This document shows positions 2,579-16,410 of a DNA stretch of 19,633 bases, in pieces. Each line of letters starts with the position of its first letter. Position 1 is the first letter of the stretch. Source of the stretch: Prevotella sp. UBA3288 (GTDB lineage Bacteria > Bacteroidota > Bacteroidia > Bacteroidales > Bacteroidaceae); the NCBI GenBank assembly GCA_002361655.1, contig DETM01000051.1:6243-25875 (forward strand), in the 5' to 3' direction. The notes beneath the pieces were generated by a model. It ran no database searches and was not told the DNA's origin. It saw only the letters and a list, made by a program, of their open reading frames with translations. Made by a program: the position numbers and the translations under genes.

Positions 2579-2609
2579 CAAAGGTACAAAGAAAAAATGA
2601 AACCGCCAA
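2579..2609 (-). promoter_or_regulatory. Sigma-ABfr promoter of the MATE operon
   Basis: On the minus strand a TTG at 2609-2607 is followed after 20 bases by TACCTTTG at 2586-2579, an exact TAnnTTTG box. Only 10 bases separate the box from the MATE ATG, so the 5' leader would be just a few bases. It is divergent from the protease promoter 20 bases away. Confidence 0.75.
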
Positions 2610-2628
2610 AGAAAAGATGAACAGGAAT

Positions 2629-2659
2629 TTGGCCGTTCAGAAAAAAATACATACCTTTG
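2629..2659 (+). promoter_or_regulatory. Sigma-ABfr promoter of the protease-xseAB run
   Basis: TTG at 2629-2631, a 20-base spacer, then TACCTTTG at 2652-2659. Expected transcription start near 2665, about 25 bases before the protease ATG. It lies back to back with the MATE promoter. Confidence 0.75.
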
Positions 2660-2689
2660 TCGACAGAAACCGAAAGACTGCACACATTT

Positions 2690-4123
2690 ATGCTACGAAA
2701 CATACTACTGCTAACCCTACTGGCCGGTCTGCTGCCGGCAGCAGCACGTACCAACAAGGTGAAGAATCCGGAGCCGAAGACTTTTGTCTACCGCTATTAT
2801 CTGCGCGACAAGGCTGGTACGGAATATTCGCTCGACGCTCCACGCCGTTTCCTCAGCAGTAAGAGTCTGCACCGCAGGGAACGACAGCGGCTGACAGTCG
2901 ACTCCACCGACATCCCGGTCTGCAAAGCCTACATCCGACAGTTTGTGCGCCCCGGCTGCCAGGTCATCGGCACCAGCCGCTGGCAGAACACCGTGCTGGT
3001 GCGCTCGGCCGACTCGCTGCTGCTCGACTCGCTGTGCCGTCTGCCACTGGTCAGGGACTCACGCTGTGTGTTCGTCGCCCCTGACTCTATCGAACCGGCA
3101 GGCGACATCATCTGGAATGTGCACGAAGAGTTCAACCTGTGGGATTCAATAAGGAACGAGCCCTACGGAGCCATGCGGCATCAGATAGAGGCAATGGGCG
3201 GCGTAAGCCTCCACGAGGCGGGCTTCAGAGGTCGCGGCATGACCATCGCTATCCTCGACGGCGGTTTCCAAAACTACAACCGCATCCCCGCCCTTCAACG
3301 AGCAAGAATACTGGGCACTCACGACTTTGTCACCCCTCCAATGCCTCAGCCGTCGGCCAAAGCCAAAAACAAGAAGCCCCGGAACGTCTCCCCCTTCCAT
3401 GCCATCGACCACGGCACCAAGGTATTCTCGGCCATCGGAGCCTATGCACCCGAGGTAGCCATCGGTACGGCCCCTGACGCCTTCTTCTGGCTCTTCAGAT
3501 GCGAAGACCCGGCCACCGAACAGCCCATCGAAGAAGACTACTGGACGATGGCGGCAGAGATGGCCGACTCCGTAGGGGCGGACATCATCAACTCGTCGCT
3601 CGGCTATTACGACTACGACGGTGACAACGACGACTACCGCCTGCAAGACCTCGACGGCAACACAGCATTCATCTCCCGGAGTGCCTCTCTACTGGCCCGG
3701 AAGGGCATCGTACTCTGCAATTCCGCCGGCAACGCCGGCATGGGACAGTGGAAAAAAATCGGCGTACCGGCCGATGCCCGCGACATACTGACCGTGGGTG
3801 CCATCGACCGCAAGCACAACCTGGCCCCCTTCTCCAGCATCGGACCCTCGCAAGACGGGCGCATCAAGCCCGATGTGGTGGCACTGGGAGCCTCGGTGGC
3901 CCTTATTTCCGGACGCGGCACACTGGTCTACGACATGGGCACCTCGTTCTCCACCCCCCTCGTCTGCGGCCTGGTGGCCTGTCTCTGGCAGGCTTTCCCC
4001 GACAAGACCGCACTGGAGATTATCGACATGGTGCGCCATTGCGCCGACCAGCACAACTGTCCTACAAACATCTTCGGATACGGCATGCCCAATTTCCGGC
4101 ACCTGATAAAGGATGACCGATAA
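2690..4123 (+). CDS. Secreted subtilisin-like (S8) serine peptidase
   Basis: A 477-residue S8 protease, probably exported to the periplasm or cell surface. Residues 1-19 are a signal peptide (MLRNILLLTLLAGLLPAAA). Residues about 30-150 form the proregion typical of Bacteroidetes S8 enzymes, with the SLHRRERQRL stretch near 59-68. The catalytic triad is visible: D190 in AILDGG, H241 in DHGTKVFS and S419 in GTSFSTP, with the oxyanion Asn at 348 in SAGNAG. The chain ends soon after the catalytic domain, so no C-terminal type IX secretion domain is present. The ATG at 2690 is preferred over an upstream in-frame TTG at 2657 that lies within the promoter. xseA follows after 32 bases and probably shares the transcript. 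The proteolytic target is unknown. Confidence 0.93.
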   Translation: MLRNILLLTLLAGLLPAAARTNKVKNPEPKTFVYRYYLRDKAGTEYSLDAPRRFLSSKSLHRRERQRLTVDSTDIPVCKAYIRQFVRPGCQVIGTSRWQNTVLVRSADSLLLDSLCRLPLVRDSRCVFVAPDSIEPAGDIIWNVHEEFNLWDSIRNEPYGAMRHQIEAMGGVSLHEAGFRGRGMTIAILDGGFQNYNRIPALQRARILGTHDFVTPPMPQPSAKAKNKKPRNVSPFHAIDHGTKVFSAIGAYAPEVAIGTAPDAFFWLFRCEDPATEQPIEEDYWTMAAEMADSVGADIINSSLGYYDYDGDNDDYRLQDLDGNTAFISRSASLLARKGIVLCNSAGNAGMGQWKKIGVPADARDILTVGAIDRKHNLAPFSSIGPSQDGRIKPDVVALGASVALISGRGTLVYDMGTSFSTPLVCGLVACLWQAFPDKTALEIIDMVRHCADQHNCPTNIFGYGMPNFRHLIKDDR

Positions 4124-4155
4124 CACGGTCGAAGGCCAAAGGCCAATAAAAAGAA

Positions 4156-5460
4156 ATGGAAACATTATCATTATACGAACTGAACCGCCTGGTGCGACAG
4201 GTTGTTGAACAGACACTCAACAGAGAGTACTGGGTGGAAGCCGAACTGTCGGAATGCCGCACGAGCAGAGGCCACTGCTACATGGAACTGGTAGAGAAAG
4301 ACGACCGTTCAAACACCCCCATCGCACGGGCATCGGCCAAATGCTGGCAGAGCACATGGACAATGGTGGCTCCCTATTTCGAACGCACCACCGGACAGAG
4401 CCTGCACGCCGGACTAAAAGTACGGCTGAAGGTCTATGCACAGTTTCACGAGACCTACGGTTTCTCGTGGATCGTCACCGACATCGACCCGACATTCACC
4501 ATGGGCGACATGGCCCGCCGGCGACAGGAGATTATTCGCCAACTGAAGGCCGAGGGCATCTTCGACCTGCAGAAAGGCCTTACCCTCTCACCCTTCTCGC
4601 TGTGCATTGCCGTCATCTCCAGCGAGACGGCCGCCGGCTATGGCGACTTCGTCAATCAACTGGCCGACTCACCTTACGCATTCCAAACACGGCTGTTCCC
4701 GGCCATCATGCAGGGTGAACAGGTAGAACAGAGCGTCATCGCTGCCCTTAACAAAATTTTCGAGAGTGTCAACGATTTTGACGCCGTGGTCATTATCCGG
4801 GGCGGCGGAGCCACAGCCGACCTATCAGGTTTCGACACACTGGCATTGGCGGAGAATGTTGCCCAGTTTCCACTGCCCGTCATCACCGGCATCGGCCACG
4901 ACCGCGACGAGAGCATCCTCGACATGGTCAGCAATACCCGCGTAAAAACACCCACCGCAGCGGCCCAGATGCTCATCACCCTCCTGGACGACACGCTGCA
5001 ACGCATCACGACAAGCAGCGAGCGCATTACCCGGCTGGCACAGAACCGTCTGGAGAACGAGCGACTACGGCTGGCCCGCTTCTCCGAACGCATCCCCACC
5101 CTCTTCTCTCTTGTCAGAACAAGACAAGAGGCTCTGCTTGACCGACTGAGTCAGACCGTCATCACCATCATACAGAGACAAACAGAGAGAGAACGCCTCA
5201 GGGTGGAGAGACTTGCCGACCGACTGCCGGCGATGACTGCCAGCCGGCTACAGACCGAACAGCACCGGCTGCAACTGCTCGAACAGCGTGCCGGCAGCCT
5301 GAACCCCGACCTGCTGCTCAAACGCGGCTACAGCATCACCCTCCACAACGGAAAGGTACTGCAATCGACCGACGGACTAAAGCAGGGCGACATTCTGCAA
5401 ACCCGACTGGCCAAAGGCTGTCTGACCTCTACCGTCGTCAACACTTCATCAGACACTTAA
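4156..5460 (+). CDS. xseA: Exodeoxyribonuclease VII large subunit
   Basis: Catalytic subunit of exonuclease VII, which degrades single-stranded DNA from both ends into oligonucleotides and acts in repair and recombination in the cytosol. The 434 residues compare with 456 in E. coli. Residues 1-110 are the OB-fold DNA-binding domain (SLYELNRLVRQ, then YWVEAELSE). The catalytic core follows, with SSETAAGYGDF (155-165), the RGGG motif (215-218), DLSGFD (222-227) and GIGHDRD (245-251); these hold the conserved Asp, Arg, His and Asp of the family. A long charged helical region follows, to about residue 390, which binds small subunits in relatives. xseB starts 14 bases after the stop, the expected partner order. 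Confidence 0.97.
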   Translation: METLSLYELNRLVRQVVEQTLNREYWVEAELSECRTSRGHCYMELVEKDDRSNTPIARASAKCWQSTWTMVAPYFERTTGQSLHAGLKVRLKVYAQFHETYGFSWIVTDIDPTFTMGDMARRRQEIIRQLKAEGIFDLQKGLTLSPFSLCIAVISSETAAGYGDFVNQLADSPYAFQTRLFPAIMQGEQVEQSVIAALNKIFESVNDFDAVVIIRGGGATADLSGFDTLALAENVAQFPLPVITGIGHDRDESILDMVSNTRVKTPTAAAQMLITLLDDTLQRITTSSERITRLAQNRLENERLRLARFSERIPTLFSLVRTRQEALLDRLSQTVITIIQRQTERERLRVERLADRLPAMTASRLQTEQHRLQLLEQRAGSLNPDLLLKRGYSITLHNGKVLQSTDGLKQGDILQTRLAKGCLTSTVVNTSSDT

Positions 5461-5474
5461 TACCCAAGACCGTT

Positions 5475-5654
5475 ATGACATACGAAGAATCATTAGCCAA
5501 ACTCGAAGCCATCGTCAGCAAGATGGAGAACGGACAGTTCTCGGTCGACGAACTGGCACAACAACTCAAGGAAGCACAGCACCTCATTGAACAATGCAAG
5601 GCGAAACTGAACAAAACTGACAGCGAAATAAAGAAAATTTTAGAAAAAAGTTAG
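5475..5654 (+). CDS. xseB: Exodeoxyribonuclease VII small subunit
   Basis: A 59-residue protein starting MTYEESLAKLEAIVSKMENG, the signature of XseB, and continuing through ELAQQLKEAQHLIEQCKAKL. Several copies wrap around the helical arms of XseA and are needed for exonuclease VII activity. The length fits the family (about 60-80 residues). The ATG is 14 bases after the xseA stop in the standard arrangement. The coding sequence ends 6 bases before the -33 element of the ilvE promoter, and no intrinsic terminator is visible between them. Confidence 0.95.
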   Translation: MTYEESLAKLEAIVSKMENGQFSVDELAQQLKEAQHLIEQCKAKLNKTDSEIKKILEKS

Positions 5655-5660
5655 AAAAAC

Positions 5661-5691
5661 TTGCAAGTTATTAGTTTTTTGCCTATCTTTG
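5661..5691 (+). promoter_or_regulatory. Sigma-ABfr promoter of ilvE
   Basis: TTG at 5661-5663, a 20-base spacer, then TATCTTTG at 5684-5691. This places transcription start near 5698 and leaves a leader of about 25 bases before the ilvE ATG at 5723. It may also drive the membrane-protein genes downstream, since no terminator is seen after ilvE. Confidence 0.75.
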
Positions 5692-5722
5692 CATCATCAT
5701 TTAAAGAAAATAGTAAATTAAG

Positions 5723-6739
5723 ATGAAAGACTTAGACTGGAAAAATCTATCGTTTGGCTACAGGCCGACAGACTATAACGTACGCTGTTACTACCGCGAC
5801 GGACAATGGGGCGAAATAGAAGTATGCTCCGATGAATACCTCAAACTGCACATGGCAGCCACCTGCCTGCACTACGGACAGGAGGCCTTCGAGGGTCTGA
5901 AAGCCTACCGCTGCAAGGACGGCAAGGTGCGCACCTTCCGTGTGAAAGACAATGCCGAGCGTCTGCAGTCTACCTGCCGCGGCATCATGATGCCCGAAGT
6001 GCCCACGGAACTCTTCACCGAGATGGTCAACAAGGTGGTGCGCCTGAACCAGGAGTGGATACCCACCTACGAGAGCGGAGCCACCCTCTACATCCGTCCC
6101 TTGCTCATCGGCACCAGTGCCCAGGTGGGCGTCCATCCCGCCAAGGAATACCTGTTCATGATCTTCGTCACGCCCGTAGGCCCTTATTTCAAAGGCGGCT
6201 TTGCCTCCAACCCCTATGTCATCATCCGCGACTACGACCGCTCGGCTCCCCTCGGCACCGGTAAATATAAGGTGGGCGGCAACTATGCTGCCAGCCTCTT
6301 CGCCAACAACCTGGCCCACGAGAAAGGCTACGCCTGCGAGTTCTACCTCGATGCTAAAGAGAAGAAATACATCGACGAGTGTGGCGCTGCCAACTTCTTC
6401 GGCATCAAGGACAACACCTACATCACCCCGAAGTCTACCTCTATCCTCCCCTCCATCACCAACCGTTCGCTGATGCAGGTGGCCGAAGACCTGGGACTGA
6501 AGGTAGAGCGCCGTCCCATTCCCGAGGAAGAACTCTCGACCTTCGAAGAGGCAGGAGCCTGCGGAACGGCAGCCGTCATCTCACCCATCTCCTATATCGA
6601 CGACCTGGAGACCGGCAAGCGCTACGACTTCGGCGCACAGCCCGGCCCCATCTCCAAGAAACTCTACGATACCCTGCGCGGCATCCAGTACGGCGAGATT
6701 GAAGACAAGCACGGCTGGACCAGTGTGGTTATTGAATAG
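5723..6739 (+). CDS. ilvE: Branched-chain amino acid aminotransferase
   Basis: PLP-dependent fold-type IV transaminase interconverting leucine, isoleucine and valine with their 2-keto acids, using glutamate/2-oxoglutarate in the cytosol. The 338 residues match the BCAT type II length. Recognised motifs: YGQEAFEGLKAYR (51-63), TLYIRPLLIGT (121-131), and LGTGKYKVGGNYAAS, where the second Lys, K183, is the expected Schiff-base lysine. DECGAANFFGIK, SILPSITNRS and GTAAVISPI follow in normal order. It has its own promoter and is followed after 32 bases by the first CD225 gene. There is no sign of truncation or of other branched-chain genes nearby. Confidence 0.97.
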   Translation: MKDLDWKNLSFGYRPTDYNVRCYYRDGQWGEIEVCSDEYLKLHMAATCLHYGQEAFEGLKAYRCKDGKVRTFRVKDNAERLQSTCRGIMMPEVPTELFTEMVNKVVRLNQEWIPTYESGATLYIRPLLIGTSAQVGVHPAKEYLFMIFVTPVGPYFKGGFASNPYVIIRDYDRSAPLGTGKYKVGGNYAASLFANNLAHEKGYACEFYLDAKEKKYIDECGAANFFGIKDNTYITPKSTSILPSITNRSLMQVAEDLGLKVERRPIPEEELSTFEEAGACGTAAVISPISYIDDLETGKRYDFGAQPGPISKKLYDTLRGIQYGEIEDKHGWTSVVIE

Positions 6740-6771
6740 AACTATCAACAAGAAATAACCGATTTTGAATT

Positions 6772-7053
6772 ATGGAAACAAATCAAGGCTATTACGCTCC
6801 CGCCAAACCGGACAACAACCTTATCCTGGCCATCTTCTGCACGGCATGCTGCTGTCTGCCGGCAGGCATCTATGCCATCATCAAGGCAAACGATGTAAAC
6901 AACCAATACAACATGGGCATGTACGACCAGGCTGTTGAGTCAGCGGCGCAGGCAAAGAAGTGGAGCCTTATCGGCATTGGCGCCAGCGCTGTCGTATGGA
7001 TTCTGTACATCCTGTTCTACATCATCATCTTCGTTATAGCCGCTGCCAGTTAA
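6772..7053 (+). CDS. CD225/dispanin family small membrane protein
   Basis: A 93-residue protein with the CD225 (dispanin, IFITM-like) layout. A short polar N-terminus with prolines is followed by NNLILAIFCTACCCLPAGIY, a half-buried segment with a Cys cluster. The conserved cytosolic loop follows, with AIIKANDVN, a DQAVESAAQAKKW stretch, then one C-terminal transmembrane helix (about residues 70-91). In animals this family remodels membranes and blocks viral fusion; bacterial members have no established role. It begins the first CD225-DUF2752 pair, with a gap of 9 bases to the DUF2752 gene. No promoter of its own is visible, so it may be read from the ilvE promoter. Confidence 0.85.
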   Translation: METNQGYYAPAKPDNNLILAIFCTACCCLPAGIYAIIKANDVNNQYNMGMYDQAVESAAQAKKWSLIGIGASAVVWILYILFYIIIFVIAAAS

Positions 7054-7062
7054 AACAGTTCT

Positions 7063-7443
7063 GTGTCTACGAAGAAACGAGCCATAGCGGTAGTCGCGGC
7101 ATGCGTCATCACCCTGGCTGTACTCTATGTACTGAATCCCGTCGACCATCAACTGATGCCGAAATGCCCCTTTAAACTGCTCACTGGGCTGAGTTGTCCG
7201 GGGTGTGGTTTCCAACGAGCCATCCACGCACTGTTGCACGGACGAATAGCAGAAGCGTTGGGCTATAATTACTGGCTAGTGTTTGCCCTGCCCTACCTGA
7301 TAGCGGTCATCGTCGAGAAATGGGCATTGCACGGGAAATGGCAAAAGAAGGCTGAGGCTGTGATTGAACATCGCTATCTCATCCACTTCTATATCGTAAC
7401 ATTCTTCATCTGGTTTGTCGTAAGAAACCTCTATAACATTTAA
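7063..7443 (+). CDS. DUF2752 membrane protein (copy A)
   Basis: A 126-residue protein of the uncharacterised DUF2752 family. It has a transmembrane helix at about 7-25, then NPVDHQLMPKCPF, the family signature GLSCPGCGFQRA with its CxxC, an HALLHGRIAEAL amphipathic stretch, and two further helices. It starts with GTG 9 bases after the CD225 stop; no earlier in-frame start fits, and the next ATG would lose the first helix. No function is established for the family. The CxxC could bind metal or form a disulfide, which is a guess. A second, diverged copy lies at 7785-8177. Confidence 0.85.
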   Translation: MSTKKRAIAVVAACVITLAVLYVLNPVDHQLMPKCPFKLLTGLSCPGCGFQRAIHALLHGRIAEALGYNYWLVFALPYLIAVIVEKWALHGKWQKKAEAVIEHRYLIHFYIVTFFIWFVVRNLYNI

Positions 7444-7456
7444 AACTAAAAGAAAT

Positions 7457-7774
7457 ATGGATTATCAGTATCAAGACACGGGCTACATCGCTGCCCCACA
7501 GGACTACAAAATCTGGTCCATCATCAACATCGTACTGGGCGTGCTCTGCTGCGGATGCTGCGGCATCATCGGACTCGTACTGGCTATCATGGCCCTGCTG
7601 AAGTCAAACGACGTGGGCAAGTTCGTCGCCATGGGCGAAACGGGCATCACACAGGCACAGGATGCCTCAGAGAAAGCCAAACTCTACAACATCATTGCGT
7701 CTGCACTGATTGGTCTGAGTTTCATCTGCAACTTCATCTACGTCATCCTCTACTTCACCGGGGCACTCAACTAA
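7457..7774 (+). CDS. CD225-like small membrane protein (second copy)
   Basis: A 105-residue protein with the same plan as the gene at 6772: tyrosine/glutamine-rich N-terminus (MDYQYQDTGYIAAP), a hydrophobic segment with a CCGCC cluster, a polar loop with LLKSNDV and the ITQAQDASEKAKLY stretch matching the AKKW region, and a C-terminal helix. It is clearly more diverged from standard CD225 than the first copy, so the assignment rests on layout and the Cys cluster. It starts 13 bases after the first DUF2752 gene, and the second DUF2752 gene follows after 10 bases, reproducing the first pair. Function unknown. Confidence 0.75.
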   Translation: MDYQYQDTGYIAAPQDYKIWSIINIVLGVLCCGCCGIIGLVLAIMALLKSNDVGKFVAMGETGITQAQDASEKAKLYNIIASALIGLSFICNFIYVILYFTGALN

Positions 7775-7784
7775 TCATGCAGTG

Positions 7785-8177
7785 ATGAGCAAAAGGGGTC
7801 TGAAGACTGTTGCACTGATCCTGGGCACGCTGGGTGTGATCACGGTGTTGGTGCTGCTCTACATCTTCAACCCGACAGAGACATCTGTTGCGCCCAAATG
7901 CGTATTCAAAGCCATCACGGGCTGGAGTTGTTCAGGTTGCGGGATGCAGCGGTTTATCCATGCTTTCCTGCACGGCCGGTTTCTCGAGGCCATCCAATAC
8001 AACTACATCCTGGTTGTCTTCATACCCTACATGATACTCTTCGGCGTTGAGAACCTGCTCCTCACCGGTGAAAGGAAACAGCGATGGAAGCGTATACTGG
8101 AAGGAAAAGAGATGGTGATGACCATGCTCGTTCTTGTTACGGGCTGGACCGTCATTAGGAACATACTTGAAATATAG
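7785..8177 (+). CDS. DUF2752 membrane protein (copy B)
   Basis: A 130-residue paralogue of the protein at 7063. It has an N-terminal helix ending YIFNPTETS, then KCVFKAITGWSCSGCGMQRF with the same CxxC and following Arg, the HAFLHGRFLEAIQYNY stretch, and two more helices, ending with an IRNILEI tail like the VRNLYNI of copy A. The ATG at 7785 is chosen; a GTG sits directly before it in frame. The paralogues share the core motif but differ in most helix residues, so the duplication is old or has diverged quickly. Function unknown. Confidence 0.85.
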   Translation: MSKRGLKTVALILGTLGVITVLVLLYIFNPTETSVAPKCVFKAITGWSCSGCGMQRFIHAFLHGRFLEAIQYNYILVVFIPYMILFGVENLLLTGERKQRWKRILEGKEMVMTMLVLVTGWTVIRNILEI

Positions 8178-8224
8178 AGTCATTTGTAATACATCATTAT
8201 TAACCCTTTAAAACAATTAGAACT

Positions 8225-8548
8225 ATGACAACAGAACAAATTGAACAGTTTTTGTCCGTAAATGCTGACAAAATCGCCCCCGAGGACATGGACACCATCC
8301 GCGAGCGTCTTGCTAATGCCGACCAGGGTGCAGCGACAGCCGCATTCTCCAATCTCAAGAGCCCCACTATCGCCCTCATTCTGGCTATCCTCACCGTATG
8401 GGATCGTCTCTATCTAGGCGAAATCGGCATGGGCATTTGCAAATGGTTCACCTGTGGTGGTTGTGGCATTTGGTGGCTCATCGACATCTTCACCGCCAAG
8501 AAGAGAGCCCAGCAGATTAACCTCAACAAGATTCTGGAGCAAATCTAA
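8225..8548 (+). CDS. TM2 domain protein (short form)
   Basis: A 107-residue protein. An N-terminal helical, charged region (residues 1-45, with IAPEDMDTIRERL and FSNLKSP) precedes a TM2 domain of two transmembrane helices joined by the DRxYLG turn (D60, R61), ending GGCGIWWLIDIF. Compared with its neighbour at 8683, three residues are missing just before the DR motif, where TM2 proteins usually have a Gly-rich GxLGxD turn. The first helix may therefore be strained or shorter. TM2 proteins are widespread with no agreed function. A leader of 47 bases separates it from the DUF2752 gene, and a strong terminator follows. Confidence 0.85.
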   Translation: MTTEQIEQFLSVNADKIAPEDMDTIRERLANADQGAATAAFSNLKSPTIALILAILTVWDRLYLGEIGMGICKWFTCGGCGIWWLIDIFTAKKRAQQINLNKILEQI

Positions 8549-8571
8549 ACCGACTCCGACAAAACAAAAAG

Positions 8572-8602
8572 AAACGCCCTGCATCGTCGGGGCGTTTTTT
8601 TT
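8572..8602 (+). terminator. Intrinsic terminator after the first TM2 gene
   Basis: AAACGCCC at 8572-8579 pairs perfectly with GGGCGTTT at 8590-8597 across a 10-base loop, and the T run extends to 8602. It lies 24 bases after the TM2 stop and closes the transcript coming from ilvE and the CD225-DUF2752 genes. Confidence 0.88.
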
Positions 8603-8612
8603 ATCATATTAT

Positions 8613-8643
8613 TTGGCGGTTTCGATTTTTTTGTTTAACTTTG
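8613..8643 (+). promoter_or_regulatory. Sigma-ABfr promoter of the second TM2 gene
   Basis: TTG at 8613-8615, a 20-base spacer and TAACTTTG at 8636-8643. Coming 11 bases after the terminator T run, it gives the second TM2 gene independent transcription with a leader of about 33 bases. Confidence 0.75.
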
Positions 8644-8682
8644 TAGCCAAAATCATGTAAAAACAAATAAAAACATAGCATT

Positions 8683-9057
8683 ATGGAACAGAAGCAAGCC
8701 GATCAACTGATCATGATGAACAGTTCAAAACTGGCACCGGAGTATATCGAGACCATCCGTGAGCGACTGCTCGACATGGAGTACAGCCAGGCCGCCGTAT
8801 ATTTTGCCAATCTCAAAGATCCCACTCTGGCCATCATCCTCTCGATCATCGTTGGCGAACTGGGCGTCGACCGCTTCTACATCGGCGATATCGGCATGGG
8901 TGTAGGCAAACTGCTGGTATTCATCATCGTTGGCACCATCAGTTGCGGCACGCTGTTCTGGGTCTGGTGGCTCATCGACATCTTCCTCATCATGGGCGCC
9001 ACCCGCAAGAAGAACTCCGAGACGCTGCTCCAGTCGCTGTCCATGCTCTCCTACTAA
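8683..9057 (+). CDS. TM2 domain protein (long form)
   Basis: A 124-residue TM2 protein paralogous to the one at 8225. The N-terminal regions align well (KLAPEYIETIRERL against KIAPEDMDTIRERL; FANLKDPT against FSNLKSPT). The TM2 domain has the regular GELGVDRFYIGDIGMG turn, then a second helix with about nine more residues than its paralogue before VWWLIDIF. The C-terminus (ATRKKNSETLLQSL) is charged. It has its own promoter and no evident operon partner downstream. Function unknown; localisation to the inner membrane is inferred. Confidence 0.87.
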   Translation: MEQKQADQLIMMNSSKLAPEYIETIRERLLDMEYSQAAVYFANLKDPTLAIILSIIVGELGVDRFYIGDIGMGVGKLLVFIIVGTISCGTLFWVWWLIDIFLIMGATRKKNSETLLQSLSMLSY

Positions 9058-9108
9058 CAGACACAAGCGCACCGGTGGAGCATGACCGTACGGACGAGTC
9101 CCGACGCA

Positions 9109-9132
9109 GGACAGTAGGACAGTAGGACAGTA
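9109..9132 (+). repeat. Three tandem copies of GGACAGTA
   Basis: Three perfect head-to-tail copies of an 8-base unit directly upstream of the inverted-repeat element. Non-coding, 52 bases after the TM2 stop. Confidence 0.85.
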
Positions 9133-9133
9133 C

Positions 9134-9204
9134 AATTTGCAAAAATCCTATCGCGTACCGCGCGCATGTGTGCGGTACGCGATAACTTTATAAAAATGCA
9201 AATT
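9134..9204. repeat. Nested inverted-repeat element with 13-bp perfect palindrome arms
   Basis: The core is TATCGCGTACCGC at 9149-9161 with its exact reverse complement at 9172-9184 across a 10-base spacer that could pair further with G-T pairs. An outer pair, AATTTGCA at 9134-9141 and TGCAAATT at 9197-9204, frames it. The right side lacks the immediate T run of an intrinsic terminator. Read on the minus strand the stem is followed by a short T run. It resembles an interspersed palindromic (REP or MITE-like) element, but copy number cannot be judged from this window. Confidence 0.7.
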
Positions 9205-9206
9205 CA

Positions 9207-9257
9207 TATCTGTCGTATCTGTCGAAAGTCATCACAAAGTCTTCACAAGTCATCACA
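9207..9257 (+). repeat. Two short imperfect tandem repeats upstream of trmB
   Basis: Two copies of TATCTGTCG (9207-9224) are followed by three near-copies of AAGTCATCACA (9226-9257; the second has one mismatch, the third lacks one base). They lie between the inverted-repeat element and the trmB promoter. No function can be assigned. Confidence 0.75.
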
Positions 9258-9280
9258 TGGCCACAAAGACACAACATTAT

Positions 9281-9311
9281 TTGGAAAATTAAAAGAAAAA
9301 GCGTAACTTTG
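9281..9311 (+). promoter_or_regulatory. Sigma-ABfr promoter of the trmB operon
   Basis: TTG at 9281-9283, a 20-base spacer and TAACTTTG at 9304-9311. Transcription should start near 9318, leaving a leader of about 20 bases before the trmB ATG. Confidence 0.75.
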
Positions 9312-9338
9312 CAGCACCAAAGGCAAGAATAGCAAAAC

Positions 9339-10109
9339 ATGAGCAAAGGAAAACTGGCCAAGTTTGCCGACATGGAGACCTACGCGAACGTCTTTCAGTA
9401 CCCCTACTCGGTGGTGAGCGACGTGCCGTTCGCCATGTGCGGCCATTGGCGCGAACAATACTTCAAGAACGCCAACCCCATCGTGCTCGAACTGGGCTGC
9501 GGCAAGGGCGAATATGCGGTGGAACTGGCCAAGCAGAACCCCGGCTGCAACTTCATCGGCGTCGACATCAAGGGAGCCCGTATGTGGACCGGTGCCACCC
9601 TGGCCTTGGAGCAGGGACTGACGAACGTAGCCTTTCTGCGCACCAACATTGAGATCATCGACCGTTTCTTCGGCCGCGACGAGGTGCAGGAGATATGGCT
9701 CACGTTCAGCGACCCGCAGATGAAGAACCCGCGCAAGCGCCTCACCTCGACCTACTTCCTGGAGCGCTACCGCCATTTCCTGACCGACGGGGGCACCATC
9801 CACCTGAAGACCGACTCGAACTTTCTGTTCACCTACACCGACGCTCTGGTGAGCCGCAACGGTCTGCCCGTAGTGCAGAAGACCACCGACCTGTATGCCG
9901 CCGACTACAACACTGCCGACTACGCCAAGGCCCGGTCGATACAGACCTACTACGAGCAGATGTGGCTGGAGCGCGGCCTGAACATCAAATACCTGAGATT
10001 CCGTCTGCCCGCAGCAGGACCGCTGGAGGAGCCGGACATCGAAATACCCTTAGACGACTACCGCAGTTACCATCGGACGAAGCGCAGTTCGCTGGAGACT
10101 GCCAAATAA
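9339..10109 (+). CDS. trmB: tRNA (guanine-N7-)-methyltransferase
   Basis: SAM-dependent enzyme that methylates G46 in the variable loop of tRNAs. The 256 residues contain the SAM-binding motif [10 protein letters not shown] (50-59), [10 protein letters not shown] (74-83), the catalytic-region [12 protein letters not shown] (123-134; family FPDPWxKxRHxKRR) and [11 protein letters not shown]-terminal extension after about residue 210 adds to the usual 210-240 residues. It has its own promoter and is followed after 9 bases by the LRR gene, probably in the same transcript. The Mrp-type ATPase gene further downstream is its usual neighbour in related genomes, as I recall them. Confidence 0.95.
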
Positions 10110-10118
10110 CTAAAGCCT

Positions 10119-11864
10119 ATGAACATCAAGCACCTATTGATAAGTATCGTACTGACAGCCGTCTGCCCCACCCTGTCAACAGCCCAGCAGACGGAGGTCA
10201 CCGTCGACAGCGTGGGCCTGCTGGCTACCCAACTGCCCGACAGCATCCGCTACACCATAGAGCGGTTGAAGATCAGCGGTCCGCTCAACGGTAGCGACAT
10301 CAAGGTGATACAGCAGATGACCAGCCGCGTCAGGCCCAAGAAAGCCGGCGATGCCGTGCTGAAGGAGATTGACCTGAGCGATGCCACGATAGAAGAAGGC
10401 AAGGGGACGTTTCGCACCCGCGGCGGTGTGGTGCCTGCCGCTATGTTTCTCAATAGCAAGGTACTGGAGCGCATCACCCTGCCCGCCACGGCCATTGAAA
10501 TTGGCCGCAGTTGCTTCAGCGGCTGTATCAACCTGCAGGAAGTGGTGCTGCCCGAGACGCTGCAGACCATCGGCGACTATGCCTTCAACGGCTGCACCAG
10601 TCTCGACGGACTGGAACTGCCGCCGACGCTGACGGCCATAGAGAACCATGCCTTCGACGGTTGCCGGGCACTGACGGCCATCCGGATACCCGCCTCGGTG
10701 ACCAACATCGACGTCTATGCTTTCAACGGCTGTGAGCAAATGGACAGCATCGCCCTGGAAGCCACCATCACCCGCATCGGCAACAACACCTTTGCCGGTT
10801 GCACCCATCTGCGCACCCTGACGCTGCCCGCCGGTGTCAGCCAGATAGGCAAGGAAGCCTTCAAGGACTGCCAGATGCTGACAACCATCGCGATGCCTGA
10901 GCGAATCGATGAGATAGGCGACAATGCCTTTGAGAACTGTCAGAGCCTGCAGACCATCACCATGCCGACAGTGACACGCCTTGGCGACGAGGTGTTTATG
11001 AACTGTATGAGCCTGCAACAGGCCGAACTGGGCAGTGTTAGCCGTATGGGCAAGATGACCTTCTACAATTGTACCAACCTGCAGCAGGCCACCATCACCG
11101 GCAACCTGCAAGTAATCGGCGACGAGACCTTCGCCGGCTGTCTGAGCCTGCTCACAGCCGCACTGCCGTCGACGGTGAAGACTATCGACACGAAGGCCTT
11201 CTTCGACTGCAAGTCGCTGGAGCGAATCGAGTTACCATCGTCGCTGGTGCGCATCAACGACCATGCCTTCGAGAACTGTGCCAGCCTGCGCTCACTAGTG
11301 GTGCCCAACATGACGAAGCACATAGGCAGCGACTGCTTTGAGAACTGCGCCTCGCTCGACAGCATCACCATCCAGGGCTTCATCGAAAGGATAGAGAGCG
11401 ACATGTTCCGCTACTGCCACTCCCTGCGCGTAGTCAACCTGCCCGTGTCGATCAAGGCCATCGACGACAATGCCTTCCAAGGCTGCTCGTCGCTAAGCAG
11501 CATCCTCCTGCCGATTGCCATCGCCAAGATTGGCGACAATGCCTTCGAGCAGTGCGTCTCGCTGCAGGCAATCGTCATCCCGGCTGCCTGCACCAACATC
11601 GGCAGTGCGGCCTTCCGCGAATGCAGCACCCTGAGTCATGTGGAGTTGCCCGCCGCCCTGAAGAAAGTGGGCGGCAACGCCTTTGCCAAGTGCGTCTCGC
11701 TGAAGATCCTCCACACCATGGCTGCCCTGCCGCCAGACATCAGCCACAGCACGTTCAAGGGCGTCGTCAACAACGCCTGCCGCGTCTACGTGCCCAGAGG
11801 TTCGAAGAGCCACTACCAGAAGAACAAGTCGTGGAATAAATTCTCACAAATCTTTGAGAATTGA
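10119..11864 (+). CDS. BspA-type leucine-rich-repeat protein, exported
   Basis: A 581-residue protein with a signal peptide (residues 1-22, cleavage near STAQQ), so periplasmic or surface located. An N-terminal region of about 75 residues includes LKISGPLNGSDIKVI, common in Bacteroidetes LRR proteins. Then come 18 LRR_5 repeats of 21-23 residues, each with an AF.xC or CF.xC core (FSGC, FNGC, FDGC, FAGC, FENC, FQGC and so on) and an ITLP-type strand. It closes with VYVPRGSKSHYQKNKSWNKF, the standard end cap of this family. BspA relatives bind host matrix or other bacteria; the ligand here is unknown. There is no visible anchoring domain. It sits between trmB and the mrp-like gene, and its stop codon lies inside a tandem heptad repeat. 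Confidence 0.93.
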   Translation: MNIKHLLISIVLTAVCPTLSTAQQTEVTVDSVGLLATQLPDSIRYTIERLKISGPLNGSDIKVIQQMTSRVRPKKAGDAVLKEIDLSDATIEEGKGTFRTRGGVVPAAMFLNSKVLERITLPATAIEIGRSCFSGCINLQEVVLPETLQTIGDYAFNGCTSLDGLELPPTLTAIENHAFDGCRALTAIRIPASVTNIDVYAFNGCEQMDSIALEATITRIGNNTFAGCTHLRTLTLPAGVSQIGKEAFKDCQMLTTIAMPERIDEIGDNAFENCQSLQTITMPTVTRLGDEVFMNCMSLQQAELGSVSRMGKMTFYNCTNLQQATITGNLQVIGDETFAGCLSLLTAALPSTVKTIDTKAFFDCKSLERIELPSSLVRINDHAFENCASLRSLVVPNMTKHIGSDCFENCASLDSITIQGFIERIESDMFRYCHSLRVVNLPVSIKAIDDNAFQGCSSLSSILLPIAIAKIGDNAFEQCVSLQAIVIPAACTNIGSAAFRECSTLSHVELPAALKKVGGNAFAKCVSLKILHTMAALPPDISHSTFKGVVNNACRVYVPRGSKSHYQKNKSWNKFSQIFEN

Positions 11865-11895
11865 GAATTGAGAGTTGAGAATTAAGAATTAAGAC
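11854..11895 (+). repeat. Six tandem heptamers spanning the LRR stop and the mrp start
   Basis: Six 7-base units in perfect register: TTGAGAA twice, TTGAGAG, TTGAGAA, TTAAGAA, TTAAGAC. The first two units carry the last codons and TGA stop of the LRR gene, and the sixth ends one base before the ATG of the next gene. The array therefore fills the whole junction. Confidence 0.9.
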
Positions 11896-11896
11896 A

Positions 11897-12997
11897 ATGA
11901 CACTATATCCGAAACTTATTATGGATGCGCTCGCAACAGTGACTTATGCGGGCACGAAGAAAAACCTAGTGGAAAGCGAGATGGTGGCCGACACCCCGAC
12001 GGTGACGCCCCTCAACCCCGCAGTAGACGGTAAAAACTGGAAGGTAGGCGTAGTACTGCTGTTTCCCCGCGACACCGACCCCTTCCTGAAGTCGACCGTC
12101 AAGGCTGCCGAGGCGGCTATCAAATACCACTGCGGTCAGGATGTGGAAGTGAACATCGCCACTGAATACAAGACAAAGCCCCGTCCGGATGATGCCCACC
12201 TGCTGCCCGGCGTGAAGAACATCATAGCCGTGAGCAGTGGCAAGGGCGGCGTAGGCAAGAGCACCGTCTCGGCCAACCTGGCTATCGCTCTGGCCCGGCT
12301 GGGCTATAAGGTGGGCCTGCTGGACACCGACATCTTCGGTCCGTCGATGCCCAAGATGTTTCACGTTGAGGATGCCCGTCCCTATGCTGTCAAGGTGGAC
12401 GGCCGCGACCTCATCGAGCCTGTAGAGAAGTATGGAGTGAAGTTGCTCAGCATCGGATTCTTCGTCAGTCCCACCACCGCCACCCTATGGCGTGGCGGCA
12501 TGGCCACCAGCGCCGTGAAGCAACTCATCGGTGATGCCGACTGGGGCGAACTGGACTACTTCATCCTGGACACCCCGCCGGGCACCAGCGACATACACCT
12601 GACGCTGCTGCAGACACTGACAATCACGGGTGCCGTCATCGTCAGCACACCGCAACAGGTGGCCCTTGCCGATGCCCGCAAAGGAATCGACATGTACCGC
12701 AACGAGAAGGTCAACGTGCCCATATTGGGACTGATTGAGAATATGGCGTGGTTCACACCGGCCGAACTGCCCGAGAACAAATACTACATCTTCGGCAAGG
12801 AGGGCTGCAAGCAACTGGCACAGGAAATGGGCGTGCCCCTGCTGGCTCAGATACCTCTGGTACAGAGCATCTGCGAGAGCGGCGACGAGGGTGAGCCTGC
12901 CGCCACAAGAGTTGACACGATGACCGGCCAGGCCTTCATCAATCTGGCACAAGCCGTGGTGACTGTGGTCAACAGGCGGAAGAAAAGTGAGAATTGA
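11897..12997 (+). CDS. mrp: Mrp/ApbC-type P-loop ATPase (iron-sulfur carrier family)
   Basis: A 366-residue cytosolic ATPase of the Mrp/NBP35 family, known for carrying and delivering iron-sulfur clusters. Residues 1-95 are a diverged DUF59-like domain. The P-loop is SGKGGVGKST (114-123), a deviant Walker A with the extra Lys, followed by DTDIFGPSMPKMF, FILDTPPGTSD (223-232) and STPQQVALAD. At ENMAWF (281-286), where most family members have the cluster-binding CPxC, this protein reads TPAELPENKYYIFG and has no Cys pair. Only C79, C304 and C326 are present, none spaced as CxxC. It may thus bind a cluster differently or not at all. The ATG immediately follows the heptad array; a second Met at residue 9 is a possible alternative start. 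Confidence 0.93.
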   Translation: MTLYPKLIMDALATVTYAGTKKNLVESEMVADTPTVTPLNPAVDGKNWKVGVVLLFPRDTDPFLKSTVKAAEAAIKYHCGQDVEVNIATEYKTKPRPDDAHLLPGVKNIIAVSSGKGGVGKSTVSANLAIALARLGYKVGLLDTDIFGPSMPKMFHVEDARPYAVKVDGRDLIEPVEKYGVKLLSIGFFVSPTTATLWRGGMATSAVKQLIGDADWGELDYFILDTPPGTSDIHLTLLQTLTITGAVIVSTPQQVALADARKGIDMYRNEKVNVPILGLIENMAWFTPAELPENKYYIFGKEGCKQLAQEMGVPLLAQIPLVQSICESGDEGEPAATRVDTMTGQAFINLAQAVVTVVNRRKKSEN

Positions 12998-13025
12998 AAC
13001 TTATTCTCGCTTCACCTTCTTCCGC
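12976..13025. terminator. Hairpin shared by two converging gene ends
   Basis: GCGGAAGAA at 12976-12984 is the reverse complement of TTCTTCCGC at 13017-13025, and inside it AGAAT at 12990-12994 pairs with ATTCT at 13003-13007 around an 8-base loop. The left arm is the end of the mrp gene and the right arm the end of the permease gene, which are separated by only 3 bases. It may act as a two-way terminator, but no T run follows the stem, so this is tentative. Confidence 0.45.
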
Positions 13026-14242
13026 TCCTTCATCTCATGCCAACGCTCCAGCGCATCCTGCCGTGTCAGATAGATCTGATAGCGGTAGACACCGCAGGCG
13101 ATGGCGAAATAGACCGTCATGAGGAGCCAGATCATGTTCAACTCAAAGGCTACATCGCTCAGCGAGGCTCCCATCGAGTTAAGACGAACATAGGCCTTGA
13201 TGCCCCAGGTGGAGGGGAATATCCACGACACGCCCTGCCATAGGCCGGGGATGTTGCTCTGCGGCCACGACACACCCGACATGAACAGCAGGGGCACCGA
13301 CATAAAAACCATGAGCAGCATCACGTTCTCACGATACTTGACTAGGCACGACGTGACCATGCCGAAGAAGATGCAGGCCAGAATATAGGGCAGCATCAGC
13401 ACCAGCAGCGTCCACCCTGTGGCCAGTTGCGGAAAACTGAACAGTTTCGGCACGACGACGGCCAGCCAGACACCCATGATAGCATAAATCATGAAATAAC
13501 ACAGCGACTTGCCGAAGACGATGCGAAACACGCCCTGATAGGGACGGCTGATGGGTATGAGTTGCTTGTAGCGGCTGTTCTCGCGTGCCGTGCCGGCCGA
13601 CATGCCGATGCCGAGAACCAGGGTCTGCTGCAGGATGAGCATCAGCACACCGGGCAGGATGAACGATCCGTAGCCGCCAGCGGGATTGAAGATGGGCACG
13701 TCGGCATAGTCGAGGGGACGGGCGGTAATAGTCTCTTCGCGTGACGTGTAGTGACCGCCAAGTTTCGTTCTGATCTCCGCCCCCATCTCGAGCGACACCA
13801 ACTGCGCCGTCTGGAAGATGGCCTTATAGGTGAGCATCAGACTCATGTCGCAATAGACGCTAATGACACCCTGCTGCATGCGATAGACATTAGTCTCGAA
13901 ATCGCCGGGGATATAGTAGGCACCCTTCACCAGTTGGCGGCTGATGAGCGACTTGGCCTCGTCCATATCCTGGGCGTAGAAAGCGACACGCACATCGGGC
14001 GAGGCATCACACCGGCGGATAAACTGACGCGACAGGGAGGTGTGGCTATCGTCGACCACCACGACGGGCACCTCGTGCACCGTCTCATTATTATATATCC
14101 ACGAGTAGAGCAACGGATAGACCAAAGGCACGATGATGAGGAAGATCAGCACACCCTCATCCTTGAACACCTGCTTGAACTCCTGTCGCCAGATATAGAA
14201 GGTGTCTTGCAGCATTCGGTTCAAACTATGGTATGTAGACAT
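13001..14242 (-). CDS. ABC-2 type transporter permease (second of pair)
   Basis: A 413-residue inner-membrane protein of the ABC2_membrane_3 type (YhhJ/YbhR-like). One N-terminal helix (about residues 33-49, near VLIFLIIVPLVYPLLYSW) is followed by a periplasmic domain of about 150 residues and then five or six helices, with the typical LFMSGVSWP segment near the C-terminus. Such permeases pair with a second permease, an HlyD adaptor and a TolC channel to export drugs or other compounds. It begins by overlapping the upstream permease: the ATG chosen gives 17 bases of overlap, while another ATG at 14215 would leave 10 bases between them. It is the last gene of the operon and faces mrp. Confidence 0.9.
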   Translation of the reverse strand: MSTYHSLNRMLQDTFYIWRQEFKQVFKDEGVLIFLIIVPLVYPLLYSWIYNNETVHEVPVVVVDDSHTSLSRQFIRRCDASPDVRVAFYAQDMDEAKSLISRQLVKGAYYIPGDFETNVYRMQQGVISVYCDMSLMLTYKAIFQTAQLVSLEMGAEIRTKLGGHYTSREETITARPLDYADVPIFNPAGGYGSFILPGVLMLILQQTLVLGIGMSAGTARENSRYKQLIPISRPYQGVFRIVFGKSLCYFMIYAIMGVWLAVVVPKLFSFPQLATGWTLLVLMLPYILACIFFGMVTSCLVKYRENVMLLMVFMSVPLLFMSGVSWPQSNIPGLWQGVSWIFPSTWGIKAYVRLNSMGASLSDVAFELNMIWLLMTVYFAIACGVYRYQIYLTRQDALERWHEMKERKKVKRE

Positions 14243-15395
14243 AAGTGAGCATGGCATTTTTAATTTTTCTGACTACCAGCCACGGCAGCAGAACAAAGGC
14301 TGCCAATGCGGCGAAATGAAACCACGCCTCCAACAGCGGATAGCCGTTGAACACGCAAATCTGATAGAGCATGTAGTAGTGGCGCAGGGGGAACAGCCAC
14401 GACAGCGACTGCAGCGGACCGTCCATGCCCATCACCGGGAAGGCGGAACCGGCCATCGAGAAACTGAGCACCGCCCAGAGCGAACAGACACTCATCGACA
14501 TGCGGAGCGAGGGCATCAGGCCGAAGGCAAAGATGCCGAAGCCCTGGGCTGCCAGTACTTGCATCAGCCCGAGCAGGACCATCATCCACGGACTGCCCAA
14601 ATGGGGAAAGCCGAGGACATAGAACACATAGATCTGATAGCCATAGACAATGGCGAGCCAGATGAGTGTTTGTGGCAGAAACTTGCCCAGCATGGCCAGC
14701 GTGATGTTGTTGTCGGTCAGAGCCAGCCACTCCTTCGACGTGTTGAACTTCACCTCGTTGCCCAGCGAATAGGCGGAGATAAGGAAGATGAACAGCATAA
14801 TCATGCCCGGTACCATCATCGTCGAGAGGTAGGAGTTGTAACTGGTCCACGGGTTGGCAATCTGGTGCAGGTCGATGCGGATGGGCTGCAGAAGCGTCTG
14901 TATCTGTGCGTCAGTGAAGCCCCTGGCCCGCAGCGTGGCCTGTCCGACGGCAGCCGACCCCAAGGTAGAGATGGTCTTCATGTCTTTCATCAGCAGCGCA
15001 CCGGCCGCCAGCGTCGTATAGGAATAGTAGTACGACACCTTGGGCTGGCGACTGGCCAGCAGGTCGTCGGTCGTTCCTTTCGGGATATAGAGGAAGGCGT
15101 ATATCTCGTTTTTCTGAATGGCATGCCGGGCTTCGCTCACGCTCGGATAGTGGGCCACGACGCGCGACATCTGGAAGGCATCGAGGCGCTGCACCAGCGA
15201 GCGCGACGTCGAGGTGTTGTCGAGGTCGACAACGCCCACAGGCATAGCCGTCGGCAGCCCGTCGTCCATGAGCGAGGTAAAGAAGAACATCACCAGGACG
15301 GGGAAGGCCACCATACAGAACCGATACATGTGGTTCCTGCGCAGAATCGACAGTTCGCGCAGACTCACCTGCAATATTTGCCTCAGTTGCTTCAT
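14226..15395 (-). CDS. ABC-2 type transporter permease (first of pair)
   Basis: A 389-residue permease with the same layout as its neighbour. An N-terminal cytosolic stretch and helix (about 24-42) lead to a periplasmic domain starting PVGVVDLDNTSTSRSLVQ, and a C-terminal block of five or six helices follows, with the SFSMAGSAFPVMGM segment near the end. The PVGVVDxD strand and its spacing are typical of ABC2_membrane_3 proteins. Its ATG overlaps the HlyD stop by 4 bases (ATGA), indicating coupled translation. The two permeases differ strongly in sequence, as expected for a heterodimer. The substrate is unknown. Confidence 0.92.
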   Translation of the reverse strand: MKQLRQILQVSLRELSILRRNHMYRFCMVAFPVLVMFFFTSLMDDGLPTAMPVGVVDLDNTSTSRSLVQRLDAFQMSRVVAHYPSVSEARHAIQKNEIYAFLYIPKGTTDDLLASRQPKVSYYYSYTTLAAGALLMKDMKTISTLGSAAVGQATLRARGFTDAQIQTLLQPIRIDLHQIANPWTSYNSYLSTMMVPGMIMLFIFLISAYSLGNEVKFNTSKEWLALTDNNITLAMLGKFLPQTLIWLAIVYGYQIYVFYVLGFPHLGSPWMMVLLGLMQVLAAQGFGIFAFGLMPSLRMSMSVCSLWAVLSFSMAGSAFPVMGMDGPLQSLSWLFPLRHYYMLYQICVFNGYPLLEAWFHFAALAAFVLLPWLVVRKIKNAMLTYVYIP

Positions 15396-16384
15396 TCTTT
15401 CACTATCAGCGACATGCCGGGACGCAACCCTTCAAGGGGCTCCACCGGACGGGCCTTCACCTCGAAGGTCTTCAGGTCGAACTGGCCGTTGGCCTTGGTA
15501 GCCTTCCATACGGCATACGAGCCCTGGTCTTTCATGTGGTAGACCTTCATCGTCACCTCGCGATTGAAGGCGGGCACGAAGGCCGTGAACTCAGTGCCTA
15601 TCTGCATGCCGTTCAACTGGTCCTCACGCACATTGAAGGTGCCCCACAGGTCGTTCATCATCGAGATGGTCATGATGGGACTACCCGTGCCCACCAGTTC
15701 GCCCACCTTGGGATAGATGCTGCTCACCTCGCCGTCCATCTGAGCCACCTGCACGGTCTCACCGATATAGGCACTGACCTCCTGCACGGCACCCTGGGCA
15801 CGCGCCACCTGGGCCTTAGCGGCCATCTTCTCTTCCTGACGGGCGCCGTTGACGGCCATGTCGTATTGACTCTGGGCGGCTTTCACCTGAGCCTGCGAAG
15901 CCTTATACATGGCCTCGGCCTCGTCGCGCTTCTGGGCACTGACCACACCCTCGTCGAACAGACGCTGAACACGGTGATACGATTTCTCGGCAATTTCAAG
16001 ACCGGCCTTGGCCTGCTGCAGCAACTGGAAGGCACCCTGCACCTGCTCCTTGCGTGCACCGTTCTGCGCCATCTGTTCCAAGGCCGAAGCACCGGCCTCA
16101 GCACCCTGTGCCTGCTGCATCTTGGCCCTCACCTCGGGGGCATCGATAATAGCCAGCGTGTCGCCGGCACGGACGAAGTCGCCCTCTTTGACACGGATTT
16201 CCAGTATGCGGCCTGGCACCTTGCTCGACACGCGATATTCGGAGACTTCCACCTGTCCCTGTATGAGTTCCGGGTCGCGCCCCAGGGTAAAGAAACCAAT
16301 CAGCGCCACGACGACAACGACTGCTGCGAAGCCGAGGATGGCCCACAGAATATTATGATGTTGTTTTTTTGCTTGCGTAGACAT
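15392..16384 (-). CDS. HlyD-family membrane fusion (periplasmic adaptor) protein
   Basis: A 330-residue adaptor linking an inner-membrane pump to an outer-membrane channel. One signal-anchor helix (residues about 12-33) is followed by a biotinyl-lipoyl half-motif, VPGRILEIRVKEGDFVRAGD (56-75). A long coiled-coil hairpin rich in Ala, Gln and Glu comes next (about 83-205), then the second lipoyl half (AQMDGEVSSIYPKVGELVG) and a beta-barrel domain. The end, GLRPGMSLIVKE, is typical. The YbhG/EmrA type is the closest pattern. It lies between the TolC gene and two permeases and overlaps the first permease by 4 bases. Confidence 0.93.
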   Translation of the reverse strand: MSTQAKKQHHNILWAILGFAAVVVVVALIGFFTLGRDPELIQGQVEVSEYRVSSKVPGRILEIRVKEGDFVRAGDTLAIIDAPEVRAKMQQAQGAEAGASALEQMAQNGARKEQVQGAFQLLQQAKAGLEIAEKSYHRVQRLFDEGVVSAQKRDEAEAMYKASQAQVKAAQSQYDMAVNGARQEEKMAAKAQVARAQGAVQEVSAYIGETVQVAQMDGEVSSIYPKVGELVGTGSPIMTISMMNDLWGTFNVREDQLNGMQIGTEFTAFVPAFNREVTMKVYHMKDQGSYAVWKATKANGQFDLKTFEVKARPVEPLEGLRPGMSLIVKE

Positions 16385-16410
16385 AGGGATATTTACTTTT
16401 TACGTATTTA

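Follow-up and report, generated by a model that had tools for sequence, protein, structure and literature searches.

Six consecutive genes for small membrane proteins (cdA, dufA, cdB, dufB, tmA and tmB) lie in a 19,633-nucleotide stretch of contig DETM01000051.1 from Prevotella sp. UBA3288, the whole of which we call the window. Our results lead to a tentative reading of this locus, possible rather than probable when taken as a whole, in which DUF2752 would be the core of a membrane module with exchangeable hairpin subunits, the window would carry two CD225-DUF2752-TM2 triads of which one is nested in the other, and the module would serve the cell envelope. The part in which we have most confidence is that DUF2752 and hairpin proteins probably form a physical complex, as their gene neighbourhoods and trees suggest. 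The initial annotation had given the gene order at 6772-9057 as CD225, DUF2752, CD225-like, DUF2752, TM2, TM2, and all six open reading frames (ORFs) are present, each of the proteins scoring above its Pfam cut-off in a profile search of the window proteins (27.1 bits for CD225, PF04505; 27 for DUF2752, PF10825; 27.9 for TM2, PF05154).

The same annotation had proposed that CD225 and DUF2752 proteins are partners and had named adjacency in other genomes as a check, and this partnership now appears likely. Neighbours were counted within 1.5 kb in an order set of 149 genomes and a family set of 201 genomes, with the window's own copies included and distances to the nearest CD225 measured from match to match. 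The order set held 117 DUF2752 matches in 89 genomes, 23 CD225 matches in 16 and 91 TM2 matches in 65; CD225 was near 17 of the 117 DUF2752 matches and TM2 near 38, with 3 having both and 65 neither. In all 17 cases the nearest CD225 was upstream on the same strand at a distance of 123-258 bp, and the 38 TM2 cases divided into 17 with the nearest match upstream, 20 with it downstream and 1 with it on the opposite strand. Counted in reverse, 18/23 CD225 and 39/91 TM2 matches were near DUF2752. The family set gave 119 DUF2752 matches in 108 genomes and 101 CD225 matches in 69, the latter often in tandem (45/101 had another within 600 bp). Here 57/119 DUF2752 matches had CD225 nearby, 55 of them upstream (52 at 123-286 bp and 3 further away) and 2 downstream, and 74/101 CD225 matches were near DUF2752. 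DUF2752 was found in 62 of the 69 family genomes with CD225 versus 46 of the 132 without it (Fisher p 1e-14, uncorrected for kinship). Under uniform placement with assumed genome sizes, only 0.03 and 0.12 CD225-DUF2752 neighbours would be expected in the order and family sets, compared with the 17 and 57 observed, counts to which the window contributes two in each set. Besides these numbers, which are far above chance, the near-fixed order, the occurrence of the pair in Nonomuraea and on a gut contig and the correlation of the two trees all point to a partnership.

The tie is not exclusive, as TM2, CCC-motif and DUF4190-like proteins are found in a similar place beside other DUF2752 genes. Home-made profiles were applied to fetched loci. 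In the order set, the 65 matches that lack both CD225 and TM2 comprised 25 with a CCC-motif neighbour (24 downstream), 14 with a DUF4190-like neighbour (13 upstream) and 26 with none; in the family set, 60 of the 62 matches lacking CD225 were fetched, of which 26 had TM2 (upstream in 25, on the opposite strand in 1) and 34 had none. It could therefore be argued that these genes are mere operon companions, small membrane genes that are co-expressed under envelope stress and whose products each act alone without forming a complex. The variety of unrelated neighbours of DUF2752 (TM2, CD225, GPDPase_memb-like proteins or none) fits such companionship, and several counts weigh against a DUF2752 core with hairpin subunits: 26/117 order and 34/119 family DUF2752 matches lack a recognised hairpin neighbour (2 family matches being left out), 52/91 TM2 and 5/23 CD225 matches in the order and 27/101 CD225 matches in the family occur away from DUF2752, and a single weak search (one query, lengths 153-488, nothing scored) turned up no protein in which CD225 or TM2 is fused to DUF2752. 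Companionship alone is nevertheless unlikely, given the near-fixed order and tight spacing of CD225, the partner-specific DUF2752 clades and a triad that stays intact in about five different neighbourhoods.

The DUF2752 lineages are partner-specific. On a tree of 215 DUF2752 proteins, 150 of which carried one of five partner labels, there were 8 label changes compared to a mean of 81.5 after shuffling, and in a subset under 50% identity (94 labelled proteins) there were 7 compared to 52.4; these trees were built on 137-139 columns, and few of their branches are strongly supported. The distances in the CD225 and DUF2752 trees, whose comparison had been suggested beforehand, correlate with an r of 0.62 over 50 pairs, a value that none of 999 permutations reached, when L131, L019, L249 and the window's B pair are omitted for their long branches in the CD225 tree (L numbers denote individual loci). 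With all 54 pairs, however, r falls to 0.25, which 2 of 999 permutations reach, and species history may lie behind part of the correlation; both points count against the complex.

The hairpin proteins are themselves connected. All 28 aligned CCC-motif neighbours match NF040945 at E 0.001 or better, the one score printed being below the NF040945 cut-off, while the DUF4190-like label is loose because just 5 of the 14 proteins match Pfam DUF4190 at that level. Profile comparison linked CD225 to the CCC-motif family with 99.0% probability (E 3e-18) and the CCC-motif to the DUF4190-like family with 97.4%, scores that hydrophobic segments may inflate, and it detected no link between CD225 and TM2. 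A bridge between the families is provided by cdB, which passes as CD225 and resembles NF040945 (CCC_membrane; 27.5 bits, below the cut-off of 65). Judged by these profiles, CD225, CCC-motif and DUF4190-like proteins are one predicted superfamily, to which TM2 is not detectably related. Both cdA and cdB have two hydropathy peaks, with CCC at residues 26-28 in cdA and CCGCC in cdB, and a CC occurs somewhere in 78 of the 88 distinct CD225 sequences collected. As a separate observation, 27 of these 88 have an N-terminal extension of the DUF4339/GYF_2 type and 7 one of the zinc-ribbon type by pattern, and extensions resembling such domains were seen by eye in the CD225 proteins of L244, L245, L246, L253, L254, L255 and L256.

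The AlphaFold2 model of dufA, built from 33 sequences, has a mean predicted local distance difference test score (pLDDT) of 93.6 and a predicted template modelling score (pTM) of 0.73, with long helices at residues 3-23, 71-87 and 104-124 and short ones between them. C35, C45, C48, G49 and R52 are invariant in the modelling alignment, whose rows a script had selected on condition that the Cys motif was present; in a set not picked by motif and excluding the window, C-x7-10-CxxCG is kept in 204 of 213 distinct DUF2752 sequences. This conservation, together with the fact that 55/55 CD225-partnered DUF2752 proteins keep C..CxxCG plus the R, is what one would expect if DUF2752 were a thiol or metal protein, with its CPxCG knuckle and one further Cys serving redox or metal handling and the hairpins merely placing it. 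We consider this improbable as the main explanation. DUF4190-partnered DUF2752 proteins keep C..CxxCG in only 9/14 cases, and with R in 7/14, so the Cys site is not needed in every version, and inspection by eye of the recurrent neighbours at the CD225 loci, named from sequence only, revealed no redox enzyme. In L098 and L101-L104 (DUF4190-like partner) and L100 (no recognised partner), at least one Cys of C..CxxCG is lost and GLSRAFS-like residues remain.

The model of cdA is of medium confidence (pLDDT 76.6, pTM 0.51), which weakens the structural side of our reading. It shows a helix broken at CCC (17-25 and 29-47) followed by a long helix at 51-92, a layout that we take to resemble that of IFITM3. 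There is no arginine anywhere in cdA or cdB, and the R-SNARE-like central arginine of IFITM3 is consequently absent. This arginine motif is described as only semi-conserved (PMC11730294).

Within the genus, 13 genomes were sampled, that of the window included, and CD225 was present in G203, G239, G297, G339 and the window. The four other genomes have a CD225-DUF2752-TM2 triad with small gaps, as do two further Prevotella loci (L258 and L259). G283 and G325 have TM2-DUF2752 and G180 has DUF2752 without a recognised partner; the remaining 5/13 have no DUF2752 match, so that DUF2752 is dispensable, a point against our reading. When 13 proteins from around the locus in the window were searched by tblastn (E 1e-10) against the stretches fetched from the triad genomes, none gave a match. 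G203, G239 and G339 share a common neighbourhood by their ORFs, and the other triad loci differ by eye; comparing these surroundings, we find that the triad stays together in about five neighbourhoods.

The initial annotation had described the locus as a duplicated CD225-DUF2752 pair followed by a TM2 pair. The trees are better explained by two triads, as the A and B copies do not group together. cdA forms a group with all six triad CD225 proteins and no others (support 95), and tmB groups with six triad TM2 proteins (7 rows, support 96), and the nearest tree rows of dufA are mostly triad DUF2752 proteins, though without starred support. In contrast, cdB, dufB and tmA fall outside the triad groups: cdB has a very long end branch, the nearest rows of dufB are L146 and L165 instead of dufA (unsupported), and tmA joins L033, which has the same deletion, and not the triad TM2 proteins. 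Since cdA, dufA and tmB are near the triad and the other three are not, the order along the DNA is A, A, (B, B, B), A, and we somewhat favour a history in which a second triad, cdB-dufB-tmA, would be nested between dufA and tmB of cdA-dufA-tmB. This history is provisional because cdB, dufB and tmA are difficult to position on account of their long branches, and the placing of dufA, dufB, cdB and tmA in the trees is weak. A simple tandem duplication of the pair with a separate duplication of TM2 would match the way in which the order reads (pair, pair, TM2, TM2) and the fact that tmA has its highest identity, 42%, with tmB. It is somewhat unlikely, however, as the supported groupings of cdA and tmB with the genus triads are not shared by cdB and tmA, and dufA is nearer to genes of other species than to dufB, the latter without support.

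The features of the locus are listed in Table 1. The small gaps noted earlier among the first four genes measure 9, 13 and 7 bp (10 if dufB is counted from its ATG) and are followed by gaps of 47 and 134 bp. Identity between the A and B copies is only 32% for the cd, 41% for the duf and 38% for the tm proteins over the aligned part, and the copies are therefore either old or fast-evolving. In the window genome (68.6% complete, 66 contigs), DUF2752, CD225 and TM2 each match exactly twice, and every one of these matches belongs to this locus; nowhere but in the window do the 201 family genomes have two DUF2752 matches within 3 kb of each other. The N-terminal segments APExxxTIRERL and FxNLKxPT, which had been noted as shared by the TM2 proteins, are indeed present in both tmA and tmB. 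They are not special to the locus, because about 27 of 38 aligned Bacteroidota TM2 proteins have a similar region by eye; SHOCT was not among the 25 of 31 families listed for these 38 proteins (E up to 1), although they may be distantly related to it. The six genes have a guanine-plus-cytosine (GC) content of 49-54%, compared to 57-59% in the five flanking genes measured, for which membrane-protein composition may be the explanation, and the B genes are not distinguishable from the A genes in this respect.

Table 1. Features of the six-gene locus (window coordinates)
Feature	Position	Strand	Description
cdA	6772-7053	+	Canonical CD225 protein, 93 amino acids, CCC motif; Pfam CD225 77.4 bits; orthologue-like member of the genus triad
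dufA	7063-7443	+	DUF2752, 126 amino acids, GTG start, three long helices, C35/C45/C48, CPGCGFQR motif; Pfam 72.9 bits
cdB	7457-7774	+	Divergent CD225, 105 amino acids, first hydrophobic segment longer; Pfam CD225 37.8 bits; intermediate towards the CCC-motif family
dufB	7782-8177	+	DUF2752, 131 amino acids, GTG start (ATG at 7785), CSGCGMQR keeps C..CxxCGxxR; Pfam 68.3 bits
tmA	8225-8548	+	Divergent TM2 protein, short deletion before the DRLYLG segment; Pfam TM2 46.5 bits
Terminator-like hairpin	8567-8602	+	After tmA, U-rich 3' arm; -20.1 kcal/mol, z -4.7
Promoter-like TTTG-N20-TAACTTTG	8612-8643	+	Upstream of tmB; pattern search
tmB	8683-9057	+	TM2 protein, groups with genus-triad TM2 proteins; Pfam TM2 45.0 bits

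None of 200 shuffled sequences was as stable as the hairpin between tmA and tmB, which was not among the sites returned by a simple terminator scan. The pattern TTTG-N17-23-TANNTTTG, which we take to be the Bacteroidetes -33/-7 promoter consensus, has seven sites in the window (2579-19160, both strands) where 0.14 would be expected, and several of these precede genes, as promoters should. The hairpin and the promoter-like site in front of tmB indicate that this gene is probably a transcription unit of its own. As no exact match to the pattern was found on the + strand between 2660 and 8611, and a hairpin follows tmA, the first five genes (cdA to tmA) may be transcribed together with ilvE and the genes that precede it. 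The neighbouring genes in the window also include xseAB and trmB. Directly after trmB, at 10119-11864, there is a gene for a BspA-type leucine-rich repeat protein (Pfam LRR_5), and the minus strand at 13001-17998 has a cluster resembling, by eye, two ABC-2-type permeases, an HlyD-like adaptor and a TolC-like protein.

Several recurrent neighbours of DUF2752 elsewhere hint at a link to the envelope. A TM2-DUF2752-DUF4870-M48 peptidase set occurs in eight loci (L028, L031, L034, L035, L198, L214, L215 and L221), with overlapping DUF2752 and DUF4870 reading frames. Of 18 DUF2752-TM2 loci, 8 (L105, L107-L110, L115, L116 and L118) have MurB upstream at a gap of no more than 223 bp, and a stricter MurB motif was found in 7 of these 18 loci versus 0 of 249 others. 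A protein with six transmembrane (TM) helices resembling GPDPase_memb adjoins DUF2752 in 11 loci without a recognised hairpin, LuxC-like genes come after the CCC-DUF2752 pair at 11 loci, and at 8 loci (7 of them CCC-labelled) there are NAD(P)H-hydrate repair genes downstream. Pfam was checked on one example of each recurrent neighbour type. This evidence has weak points: a second GPDPase_memb example scored below the Pfam cut-off, the envelope enzymes adjoin DUF2752 clades other than those of the window, whose own neighbours ilvE, xseAB and trmB say little, and shared locus ancestry can account for part of the recurrence. An envelope upkeep role of the module is thus a possible but rather uncertain extension of the gene neighbourhoods.

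DUF2752 and its hairpin neighbours are not confined to the phylum. With dufA as the tblastn query, 6 records of a plasmid collection and 3 of a phage collection matched, and 8 of these 9 were examined (H9 was left out). CD225 is upstream of DUF2752 in Nonomuraea, and just upstream of it on the gut contig MT839860, which is of unknown origin. Streptomyces cadmiisoli has an annotated TM2-DUF2752-TM2 arrangement, MT836841 has two CCC-like genes on the opposite strand, in Paenibacillus and Tsukamurella a different small hydrophobic protein is seen by eye upstream of DUF2752, and in Nocardia and Rhodococcus DUF2752 has no recognised partner. The Nonomuraea record (L260, NZ_LT559118.1) is 11.85 Mb long and, although listed as a plasmid, is probably a chromosome.

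A phage-related role had also been suggested for the locus, and the results gave it no support. CD225 might block phage entry or fusion in the way that IFITM3 blocks enveloped viruses, and one study reports that CD225 proteins from mycobacteria restrict influenza virus once they are produced in human cells (PMC4488726). However, none of the six proteins matched any PADLOC family (E up to 1). Among 10 flanking proteins the only PADLOC matches at E 1e-5 or better were those of the S8 protease with subtilase/IetS models, TrmB with mad2 and Mrp with PDC-M28B, which we read as shared enzyme domains, and the flanking genes are ordinary ones. No relative was confirmed among viral contigs, despite the three phage-collection records that match dufA, the one of these with an adjoining CD225 (MT839860.1) looking bacterial by eye. 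Membrane fusion is, to our knowledge, not the entry route of most phages that infect such hosts, which we also count against an anti-phage function, and we regard this explanation as very improbable. The record MT839860.1 (L266) is labelled Bacteriophage sp., and next to CD225-DUF2752 it has, by eye, an apparent pyrF gene, which suggests that the DNA may be bacterial.

In the inner-membrane module that we propose, the constant member would be DUF2752, with three membrane helices and the Cys-x9-CPxCG-x2-R segment between the first two, and the exchangeable subunits would be two-helix hairpins, either CD225, CCC-motif or DUF4190-like proteins, or TM2. By analogy with CD225 in IFITM3, the hairpin subunit might wedge into the membrane, and it might recruit DUF2752 and envelope enzymes or set their membrane environment, the job being envelope upkeep under stress rather than phage defence. 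The unit in the genus would be the CD225-DUF2752-TM2 triad, with cdA-dufA-tmB enclosing the diverged cdB-dufB-tmA in the window, so that the complex may come in two versions in the same cell.

No bacterial function for CD225 proteins was found in the literature searched, as far as its accessible text goes, and the conserved and partner-specific link to DUF2752, which was observed on a gut contig as well as in two named phyla, offers a concrete and testable partner. It also joins four little-studied families of small membrane proteins (CD225, CCC-motif, DUF4190-like and TM2) in one picture, and the pairing of DUF2752 with hairpin proteins, here relatives of IFITM, may give a handle on what these proteins do in bacteria. 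Bacterial CD225 proteins have been hypothesised to be the source of the animal IFITM antiviral proteins (PMC4488726). A broader and speculative extension, which we consider doubtful, is that DUF2752 would be the core of a widespread bacterial complex with a CD225, CCC-motif/DUF4190-like or TM2 hairpin, and that the bacterial ancestors of IFITM would have been its subunits, with membrane stiffening serving envelope upkeep first and antiviral defence in animals later.

Compared with known systems, dufA and dufB are ordinary members of DUF2752 (PF10825), both with the motif C..CxxCGxxR, a family for whose name no paper was found in the literature searched. tmA and tmB belong to the TM2 domain proteins (PF05154), whose Bacteroidota form has an extra N-terminal region, which flank DUF2752 in Streptomyces cadmiisoli as well and whose domain function was called unknown in 2013 (PMC3581485). 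The stlA gene from a gut metagenome, which gives salt tolerance in E. coli, is similar in that it codes for a membrane protein with four TM segments and has TM2, DUF4339 and DnaJ zinc-finger genes in its vicinity; no homologue of StlA was known when it was described, and the gene is only a lead towards a possible membrane-stress role (PMC3861447). The CCC motif membrane proteins (NF040945) adjoin DUF2752 like the proteins of the locus and are related to CD225 by profile, but they are mostly downstream of DUF2752 and differ from cdB, which reaches 27.5 of the 65 bits. The closest comparison is with the CD225/dispanin family (PF04505; IFITM3, PRRT2), with which cdA and cdB share a domain scoring above the cut-off and two hydrophobic segments with Cys-Cys in the first; unlike IFITM3, they are bacterial, lack the central arginine and are encoded together with DUF2752.

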